NCBI GenBank assembly: GCA_031264395.1
Contig: JAISEB010000232.1
Location: forward strand, 1 to 34,329
Length of the DNA stretch: 34,329 nt
Direction of reading: 5' to 3'
Source: Treponema sp.
GTDB lineage: Bacteria; Spirochaetota; Spirochaetia; Treponematales; Breznakiellaceae
Under the pieces are notes generated by a model. That model did no database searches. It was not told the origin of the DNA and saw only the letters and a program-made list of their open reading frames with translations. Of this stretch, positions 25,622 through 27,608 are shown one piece after another (the stretch's first letter is position 1; the number at the start of each line of letters is the position of its first letter). The translations under genes and the position numbers were made by a program.

Positions 25622-25637
25622 AAGGCCCGGGGGCCTT
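25622..25637 (-). other. Hairpin at the flbB stop codon
   Basis: AAGGCC-CCCG-GGCCTT lies on the flbB TAA stop, in the 54-bp gap before fliK. There is no T-run. It may modulate transcript stability between the two genes. Confidence 0.3.
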
Positions 25638-26262
25638 AATTCAGGCCGGGGGGCATCCCGGCCATTTTCCGCTGCAGTTCGGCCGCCCGGCCGGGCTCCA
25701 TGAGCGAAAGCCAATAGGACACAATGGACTGGCTCCCTTCCGCCTGGGCGATTTCTTCGGTCTTCCGGAAAACATTGATAACGTCCAGATCGTCCATGGC
25801 GGCCATGATTCCCACGGCCCGCTCCGGCGGCATGCCGGTTAACAGCCTGGCGTTTGTTTCAATGTTTCTCTCTCTAATGTCGGCCTGATCGGCCGCGGCA
25901 TTGAAGGATTTTTCCCTGTCGTCCTGGGCTTTCTGCTGTTCGGCAAGCGTCTGGGCCATTTGTTCTATTTCACCGTACCTGTTTTCCAGTTCCTGTTCCC
26001 GGCCGTCAAGTTCCCTTTCCTGCAGATCCAGGGCTTCAAGGCGCACCGCGAGCCTTTCGGCGTCGATGTTGAGCGTTTCGCCGGGGGGCGTTTCGGGCTG
26101 GGTGCGGCCTTCCCTTCCGGCAAAACGGTACAGGGGGGCCAGAACGGATTTGGCGTCTATGATATTGAGATAATCAAACCAGAGCAGGCTGCCCCCCGCC
26201 ATGACCAGAATGAGGAGCAAAAGGACGATTACCCTGCCTAAAATACGAGCGCCGCCGGCCAT
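25636..26262 (-). CDS. flbB: FlbB, periplasmic-flagellum collar protein (MotE-like)
   Basis: A 208-residue protein with a single N-terminal membrane anchor (about residues 9-30), a long coiled coil (about 70-135) and a C-terminal MgtE_N/MotE-like helical domain (LLTGMPPERAVGIMAAMDD). In Borrelia FlbB is the base of the collar that surrounds the periplasmic motor and recruits stators. GGGAGG precedes the ATG by 5-6 nt. This is the first flagellar gene in the window; the flgB-fliJ group that usually precedes it is not here. Confidence 0.9.
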   Translation of the reverse strand: MAGGARILGRVIVLLLLILVMAGGSLLWFDYLNIIDAKSVLAPLYRFAGREGRTQPETPPGETLNIDAERLAVRLEALDLQERELDGREQELENRYGEIEQMAQTLAEQQKAQDDREKSFNAAADQADIRERNIETNARLLTGMPPERAVGIMAAMDDLDVINVFRKTEEIAQAEGSQSIVSYWLSLMEPGRAAELQRKMAGMPPGLN

Positions 26263-26336
26263 TATACCCTCCCGTTAACGACATAACACCGGGCCGGTTC
26301 GCAGTCCGGCCGGCCGTAAGAAATTATTGAACAATT

Positions 26337-26478
26337 GAGGCTGTTCCAAAACTTCAGTTTTTGGAACAGCTTCTTACCCCGGAGAAAATTGCACAAGAGG
26401 CAAATACCTGCCCTACAAGGAATTAGCAATTTTCTCCAAGAGCTTGTTTCAAAACCAACCGGGTTTTGGAACAAGCTC
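26337..26478. repeat. Array of three inverted repeats, REP/MITE-like intergenic element
   Basis: Three adjacent palindromes fill most of the gap between flbB and the phosphoesterase gene. The first has arms GCTGTTCCAAAA/TTTTGGAACAGC (26340-26370, extendable to 26337-26373). The second is a perfect 12-bp pair GGAGAAAATTGC/GCAATTTTCTCC (26381-26392 and 26426-26437). The third has 17-nt arms, GAGCTTGTTTCAAAACC (26440-26456) and its near-complement (26462-26478). The outer palindromes share the core TGTTCCAAAAC in four alternating copies, so the whole has terminal inverted repeats. No T-run follows any arm. Confidence 0.65.
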
Positions 26479-26507
26479 AATTCTATTACAGTATCGGTCA
26501 AAAGGAA

Positions 26508-27608
26508 TCAACGGTTCACCCCCCGGGAATTATCTCCCCTCTTTCCCAAAAGTTCTATCCGCGCCGCGACATAGTCCAGCCTGTCCTGATTCAGCACGGC
26601 CCGGCGGTGCGGCCCCATGCTTTCCACAGGGTAGCCCCCGCGGCTGATAAAGTGTTTTCCGTTCCCCCCGGTAAACCAGTAGACCAGGGAAATTGAATCC
26701 CTGTCCAGTTCTATGGCGTTGATCCCCTTTTTTCCTATAGCGCAGCCGGCGTTGAAGAGGCAGGGAACGGGAAGCGTGTCCCCGTAAAGGCTCTGGCGGA
26801 GAACGTCCCGCCTTTCCTTTCTGCGGAGTTTGCCGAGATCGGCCGAAAGGGCGGTGACTTCCCCGGAGATTTTTTCCTTTTCGGCCGGCGTGGCGGCAGG
26901 ATAATCGCGGCAGAGCCGTTCTATTTCGAATTTGATGTAATCGAAACGTCCCAGAGACTCAAAGAGGGGCCTGTGGGTGTGGCCTATGACGGAGATACAG
27001 TTGTTCTCCAGGGAAAATCCGTAGGCCTTTCTTTCGACATAGAAACGCCGCCGGGAACTGCGGGCGGTGGATATGTTCCGTATTCCGAAGGGCTTGAGAA
27101 AATAGCGTATGCTGGCCCCTACGAGGTTGTTGTATTCGGTGTACACCCTGGAAGACTGGTGTCCGTGGTACACATACACCGGTATAATCCCCGTCTCTAT
27201 GCGGACCGCGCTGTGCAGGGCGTAAGGATAGGACTTGTGGAAAAGCAGATCCTCGTCGTGATTTCCTATGAGTTTGTAAAGGCGCTCCGCCCCGGCAAAA
27301 CGGTCAAAGACACGGTACAGGCGGGGCCACTGTTTCTGCACGGCTTCAAGGGAATAGCGCATCATCTCCTCAATGTCCCCGTTGAGAACAAGATGCCAGC
27401 CGCGCTCAAAATAATAACCGGACAAAAGAGCCGTAAGAAGCTCGCCGTTACCGGCAAGATCGTCCCGCCGGCCCGAGCCCATGTGAAAATCGCCTGTTAT
27501 AAGGACTTTTTTGCCGTCCCGTATATCCAGCACCGCGTCGGGATTAAAGCGCGGGCCCACCATATCGTTGAAAAAACTGCTTTCGGCTTTTTCCGTCCGG
27601 TACAACAT
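26508..27608 (-). CDS. Calcineurin-like metallophosphoesterase
   Basis: A 366-residue cytoplasmic protein with the complete metallophosphoesterase motif series: GDFHMG (Asp40, His42), NGD (Asp78), GNHDE (Asn116, His117), YHGHQ (His148, His150) and GHTH near residue 207. The overall shape recalls the LpxH/UDP-diacylglucosamine hydrolase group, but treponemes make no lipid A, so that substrate is unlikely. The C-terminal third is a helical region followed by a small beta segment. It follows the CBM9-like gene by 65 bp, in which an 8-bp hairpin lies. Substrate unknown. Confidence 0.88.
   Translation of the reverse strand: MLYRTEKAESSFFNDMVGPRFNPDAVLDIRDGKKVLITGDFHMGSGRRDDLAGNGELLTALLSGYYFERGWHLVLNGDIEEMMRYSLEAVQKQWPRLYRVFDRFAGAERLYKLIGNHDEDLLFHKSYPYALHSAVRIETGIIPVYVYHGHQSSRVYTEYNNLVGASIRYFLKPFGIRNISTARSSRRRFYVERKAYGFSLENNCISVIGHTHRPLFESLGRFDYIKFEIERLCRDYPAATPAEKEKISGEVTALSADLGKLRRKERRDVLRQSLYGDTLPVPCLFNAGCAIGKKGINAIELDRDSISLVYWFTGGNGKHFISRGGYPVESMGPHRRAVLNQDRLDYVAARIELLGKRGDNSRGVNR

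Follow-up and report, generated by a model that had tools for sequence, protein, structure and literature searches.

A putative hairpin-ended MITE family of Treponema and its relatives with the terminal repeats of two IS5-like insertion sequence families

Introduction

MITEs are usually regarded as deletion relics bound to one parent insertion sequence (IS). Bacterial MITEs derived from the IS5 family are short, lack a transposase gene, bear the terminal inverted repeats of a DDE IS, leave a target duplication of fixed length, reach many copies and move in trans (reviewed in PMC10969869). Here we describe an element that shares these properties and would likewise be expected to move in trans. 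It departs from IS5-derived MITEs in that its terminal repeats are doubled into hairpins, that a single core is combined with repeats from two distinct helper families, and that neither core nor loops are related to the sequence just inside the helpers' ends.

The element also resembles REP/BIME and REPIN repeats, which occur with RAYT (PMC3116915, PMC3733652), in that these are small dispersed palindromes of alternating orientation with single- and multi-hairpin forms; unlike them, it leaves 4-bp duplications, has the ends of DDE IS and is not associated with those RAYT genes that occur in these genomes. The multi-stem repeats ERIC and NEMIS of enterobacteria and neisseriae (mentioned in PMC1590033) are palindromic, dispersed, ~100-150 bp long and foldable as RNA, as is the present element. 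They differ from it in sequence and host, and for the present element helper ends and empty sites were identified.

A 2024 review of MITEs makes no mention of Treponema, spirochetes, hairpins or cruciforms (PMC10969869). Our search of the open-licence literature turned up no comparable Treponema MITE or hairpin-ended element, and prior description elsewhere is possible; as far as that literature shows, this abundant family is undescribed. It puts mobile hairpins beside genes such as flbB and supplies markers by which recent insertions can be recognised; in these spirochaetes it may also mislead assembly, the annotation of gene ends and the prediction of small RNAs.

Results

Three hairpins bounded by a 4-bp duplication lie beside flbB

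The window, that is, the whole stretch of 34,329 nucleotides that was analysed, contains a 142-bp unit at 26337-26478 in which three hairpins (A, M and B) can be seen in the sequence. The unit and its neighbours are laid out as follows.

25636-26262, minus strand: flbB, periplasmic flagellar collar protein (NF047368, E 1.9e-73); start codon 74 bp from the element
26333-26336, no strand: target site duplication AATT, left copy, matching 26479-26482
26337-26352, plus strand: left terminal inverted repeat GAGGCTGTTCCAAAAC, the outer arm of hairpin A; 16/16 identical to an IS5-like element end in G089 (L293)
26337-26373, plus strand: hairpin A, apical loop TTCA; stem 26337-26351/26359-26373, 15 pairs, 93% complementary
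26373-26380, plus strand: unpaired conserved spacer CTTACCCC; CTTACCC near-invariant over 31 copies
26381-26437, plus strand: central hairpin M, GGAGAAAATTGC...GCAATTTTCTCC; stem 26381-26392/26426-26437, 12 pairs, 100%
26440-26478, plus strand: hairpin B, apical loop AACCG; stem 26440-26456/26462-26478, 17 pairs, 94%
26463-26478, minus strand: right terminal inverted repeat GAGCTTGTTCCAAAAC (read inward), the outer arm of hairpin B; compare the IS ends GAGCCTGTTCCAAAAC
26479-26482, no strand: target site duplication AATT, right copy, matching the left copy
26508-27608, minus strand: calcineurin-like phosphoesterase gene (PF00149, E 3.4e-4, at the cut-off); stop 29 bp from the element

This layout bears out the three palindromes with shared arms that a first-pass annotation had read at this site, since TGTTCCAAAAC is common to the arms of A and B. 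Four alternating core copies had been claimed; they are present in alternating orientation, and one of them is mismatched (TTTTGAAACA at 26445-26454). The separate perfect 12-bp inverted pair is stem M, which is sequence-invariant in the window copy's subfamily, with 10 of its 12 pairs never varying. Terminal inverted repeats on the unit were also recovered, the outer arms being complementary at 90% over 20 nt (26333-26352/26463-26482). The first description is corrected in that the AATT duplication bounds the exact unit on both sides. Each end of the element forms a hairpin because the terminal repeat is followed by its own reverse complement; the loop at its apex is conserved (TTCA for A, AACCG for B). 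The tip of the inner arm of A reads GAAG instead of GAGG and is thus not a proper repeat tip.

The open reading frame list places no gene inside the 142-bp unit, hence no transposase gene. The GC content of the element is ~42%, compared to 55-65% in the flanking windows, so that it is AT-richer than its surroundings, moderately rather than "much more" so as had been stated. Its location between the phosphoesterase gene and flbB agrees with that first reading.

We also observed a near-fixed G.T wobble between the outer and inner arms of hairpin A (alignment A1 columns 2-3 with 36-37; 26338-26339 with 26371-26372). The wobble leaves the hairpin paired and spoils the inner repeat tip, perhaps sparing the interior of the element from the transposase.

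The element is dispersed through its host genome and family

The host genome is a MAG of 2.9 Mb in 354 contigs and is 85% complete. It holds 78 local DNA matches to the element, five of them near-full at ≥93% (query included). A covariance model built from 31 copies gave 9 matches above 140 bits in this genome, equivalent to ~9 full copies, plus many remnants. Within the family, the same model at E ≤ 0.01 matched 171 of 200 genomes, in 50 of 57 genera, and looser resemblance reaches other families of the same order; among the matches listed, none lies outside the order. The proposal of a dispersed repeat is thus confirmed by whole-genome search, and the opposite outcome, a single copy without relatives, clearly failed.

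A pattern of the conserved core found at least dozens of copies in Treponema and Spirochaetaceae MAGs. The core-pattern matches listed outside Treponema are single 18-base matches without flanking hairpins that look like chance, as does the match in viral_contigs. The pattern TGTTCCAAAAC-N10-TTTTGGAACA has zero matches in the element's own genome because the actual loops are shorter than N10. We distinguished a second subfamily, which has GGGAACCTCTAAAAAC arms but the same loops, spacer and M stem as the first.

Target duplications and empty sites indicate movement

An exact 4-mer duplication stands at the predicted boundary in 20 of the 58 full copies with definable ends, whereas permuted flanks gave a mean of 0.93 and a maximum of 7 in 20,000 trials. 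Exact duplications are therefore found in about a third of copies only; the remaining copies are mutated or recombined, or their ends were set imprecisely. To search for empty sites, the flanks of copies from the element's own genome were joined with one target copy retained and compared with three congeners. Precise empty sites were found in the congener G074 for two full copies (L024 vs L350, L027 vs L356). In the two congeners with an flbB gene, G074 and G075, the locus lacks the window copy, and its spacer is too diverged for a base-exact empty site. At this GC content spurious long frames abound, which blurs any comparison of insertions with open frames. The many copies, the 4-bp target duplications and the precise empty sites show that the element is mobile.

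The outer arms equal the ends of two IS5-like insertion sequence families

The first-pass annotation had suggested looking for a transposase with matching ends, and two IS5-like families in related genomes provide them. They were identified via searches for PF01609 and then for both transposases; a de novo search of ~1 Mb of loci had returned no transposase with matching ends. The outer arms of the element equal the helper terminal inverted repeats at 16/16 positions, with GGGAACCTCTAAAAAC / GGGAACCTCTGGAAAC in one subfamily and GAGSCTGTTCCAAAAC / GAGSCTTTCCCAAAAC in the other. The ends of both helper families are plain, without hairpins.

Helper 1 is a 1246-bp IS present in three copies in the one-contig genome G141. 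Its transposase, of 343 aa, belongs to the IS5 family (NF033581, 293 bits vs a cut-off of 140), its ends are GGGAACCTCTAAAAAC / GGGCATCTCTAAAAAC, and its copies in G141 are flanked by the 4-bp duplications TAAA, ATAT and ATAT. Transposases related to that of helper 1 are present in G074, a genome of the host's own genus, where the gene-5' end reads GGGAACCTCTGGAAAC and the gene-3' end GGGAACCTCTAAAAAC; the two ends lie on different contigs, and G074 holds IS fragments at contig ends only. The outer arms of B and A in the second subfamily have exactly these sequences, so that even the difference between the two IS ends is mirrored.

Helper 2, a 369-aa IS5-like family (P0002), occurs in 36 of 200 genomes and leaves the duplications TCTA and TTAA in G141. 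Against the NCBIfam models for IS5 and IS1182, P0002 falls short of the curated cut-offs, so that "IS5-like" is a loose label for it. Its ends read GAGGCTGTTCCAAAAC (L293), GAGCCTGTTCCAAAAC (L297, L298, L304, L311), GAGCCTTTCCCAAAAC (L290, L300) or GAGCCTGTTGCAAAAC (L289). These account for the main variants of the arms seen in the first subfamily, including those of the window copy. No intact helper of either family was found in the host MAG (85% complete, 354 contigs).

In another genome, G066, hairpins of the A and B type bracket a degraded gene for a helper-1-like transposase (L276:1230-2024); the orientation is right, but a duplication is missing. This is possibly a gene-bearing form or two separate insertions, and we did not treat it as an autonomous parent.

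The ends favor a MITE over a RAYT-moved repeat

The first-pass annotation had left the choice between a REP/BIME and a non-autonomous MITE. Being short (142 bp), without a transposase gene and dispersed in copies with terminal inverted repeats, the element is by its sequence features a MITE, and not a REP/BIME, because two IS5-like IS have terminal inverted repeats identical to its outer arms. The target duplication is of fixed length (4 bp) and common to the element and the helper IS of G141. The many copies, the 4-bp duplications, the empty sites and the identity of the ends with IS5-like IS all agree with a non-autonomous MITE.

Movement of a REP/BIME-type repeat would depend on a RAYT, a tyrosine transposase of the Y1 HUH type, whose substrate is the single-stranded hairpin. 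Hairpins that alternate in orientation, the occurrence of single-hairpin copies and the presence of RAYT-like Y1 genes in several of these genomes would fit such a repeat. The HUH mechanism of REP/BIME with RAYT leaves no target site duplication, so the 4-bp duplications strongly contradict it, as do the exact ends of DDE insertion sequences. Furthermore, these hairpins were found at 0 of 9 RAYT-type Y1 loci scanned outside G024, and G014 and G199 bear the element without a Y1 match. We consider movement by RAYT very improbable, and RAYT (PF01797) was rejected as a helper.

The genome G024 has 28 matches to Y1 (RAYT/IS200-like) transposases (L249, L256, L260, L263, L265-L267) and no match to the present element, which suggests a separate, expanded Y1 family.

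One core carries the arms of two helper families

Copies with one and the same core have arms belonging to either of two helper families. A tree of the core alone, resting on 57 columns only, needs 3 arm-type changes (bootstrap range 3-3) compared to a shuffled mean of 26.7, and at least two of these are forced by well-supported branches. One change leads to 40 type 1 copies and a separate change to L037 and L117. Given these 3 changes, helper switching appears to proceed through the rewriting of all four arms of an element.

The main alternative is core exchange, in which the two arm types represent two independent MITEs whose cores were later exchanged by recombination, with no rewriting of arms within a lineage. 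Recombinants do occur: in L103 the two arms of hairpin B are of different types and a duplication is missing, and L039 combines TTTCCC and TGTTCC arms. However, both hairpins switch together, each with two arms that are still complementary, and exchange would require two crossovers inside short sequences. The TTCA and AACCG loops are, moreover, constant in both types and in related elements with other centres. We therefore regard core exchange as somewhat unlikely, though worth serious consideration.

Arm rewriting belongs to a model that we think very probable overall: a non-autonomous hairpin-ended transposon (MITE) that moves in trans through IS5-like transposases, has its arms rewritten by inverted-repeat copying and decays to single hairpins. 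An IS5-like DDE transposase acting in trans would bind the two outer arms (outer A on the left, outer B on the right), excise the element and reinsert it with a 4-bp stagger into AT-rich target sites. With the repeat doubled, template switching or inverted-repeat conversion could carry a change from one arm over to its partner. Such copying could give the element the repeat of another insertion sequence while the core is retained.

Extended further, a single hairpin-ended lineage across Treponema's order may have changed helper repeatedly by palindrome copying of all four arms, with its apical loops and core persisting. We put this forward tentatively, at a little less than an even chance. If true, palindrome copying of arms would let a parasitic element outlive any one helper. 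With a conserved core joined to the ends of two IS5-like helpers, and with relatives that have further ends, helper switching by small parasitic elements becomes open to direct test; the pattern also suggests that hairpin ends may make such switching easier.

Pairing of the arms and the possibility of an RNA role

The first-pass annotation had raised a multi-stem RNA in the gap. On the plus strand the RNA fold has an energy of −68.9 kcal/mol, compared to −31.5 for shuffled sequences (z −10.8, 0 of 200 shuffles); on the minus strand z is −6.8. In the alignment of 31 copies, pairing holds in 98.4% of pair cells; changes on both sides affect 21 pairs (197 cells vs 62 in shuffles), every one of them in A or B, and M is nearly invariant in sequence. 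Were the region transcribed, an RNA of this form could exist, but pairing as such is no clear evidence of RNA function.

These data would also be expected of a structured RNA or cis-regulatory element (an attenuator, RNA-stability element or small RNA) kept by selection on transcripts, its mobility being incidental. A strong fold and many compensatory changes favor it, and wobble pairs show a strand asymmetry, too weak to separate RNA selection from DNA-level palindrome copying: G.U cells exceed A.C cells on the plus strand, e.g. 27 vs 15 in stem B with terminal and shared-descent columns removed. This excess is small and mostly inherited, however, and stem M lacks any covariation. Loops are inverted in some copies (TTCA to TGAA in L042, L055 and L123; AACCG to CGGTT in L096), copies sit at unrelated sites and are missing at orthologous ones, and the Rfam search gave no meaningful match to the element, the window yielding a tRNA only. 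Selection for an RNA is in our view an improbable explanation.

The earlier remark that the element is not a terminator fits the missing U-tract. An intrinsic terminator was rejected on this ground, despite one weak call on the plus strand (AATTCTATTA tail), with none on the minus strand, which carries both flanking genes.

Inversion of an apical loop leaves the arms intact (TGAA for TTCA or CGGTT for AACCG; L042, L055, L096, L123), pointing to recombination between hairpin arms.

Full copies can decay to single hairpins

A loose scan for single hairpins includes many unrelated palindromes, and only strictly classified ones were counted. When both arms were classified (n = 21), the largest class (9) joined an outer A to an outer B arm, as deletion between arm repeats predicts. 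At one site this step is visible directly: where the host genome has the full copy L005, the orthologous site in G074 holds a single hairpin with the outer B arm and the same private base (GTTCCGAAAC). More generally, deletion between the repeated arms would remove the middle of a full copy and leave a single hairpin with both outer ends.

In solo-LTR formation, a full element collapses via deletion between internal repeats. By analogy, the remnant here would likewise retain both outer ends and the duplication after a deletion between repeats; unlike in solo-LTRs, the repeats are hairpin arms of 10-16 bp in a DNA element, and no retroelement is involved.

Some single hairpins have duplications of their own (e.g. 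ACAT at L013, TATT at L011), which could mean that each terminal hairpin itself moves as a minimal repeat-loop-repeat element and that the 142-bp unit is a composite of two. The commonest classified hairpins (9 of 21) are nevertheless the outer A plus outer B type predicted by internal deletion, one single hairpin arose through deletion at an orthologous site, and the tip of the inner A arm is GAAG or GAAAA, not a proper repeat tip. We give independently moving hairpins little credence and prefer decay of the full element.

Related elements occur across the order

Related elements in other genera keep the A loop and an AACC-kind B loop, and differ in centres and arms; one example has GGGGCTGTCCAAAAAC arms and the centre GTTTAAAATTAAGTC...GACTTAATTTTAAAC. 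Three-hairpin relatives with other centres and other arms (GGGGCTGTCCAAAAAC; GGGCACCTCTAAAAAC) were seen order-wide (L364-L382, in G555, G201, G204, G354, G553, G545, G206, G489, G544, G432, G388, G320 and G013). Some of these have 4-bp duplications (TATA at L367, AATA at L372, TATA at L373, ATAT at L375); the GGGGCTGTCC group showed none. The element's own and related genomes also contain a third set of arms, GGAGTTGTTCRATAAC / GGACTTGTTCGATAAC, which goes with the spacer AACTTCCGCTTA (L181:1501-1631; L073:4863-4971; L203, L211), and no insertion sequence with GGAGTTGTTCRATAAC / GGACTTGTTCGATAAC ends was identified.

Finally, small hairpins such as CGAACCGCAGGTTCG and GCGCCTTATGGCGT lie inside the apical loops of A or B, sometimes in tandem (L041, L046, L052, L055, L102, L104, L108, L130), as if these loops were preferred sites for the insertion or expansion of small hairpins.
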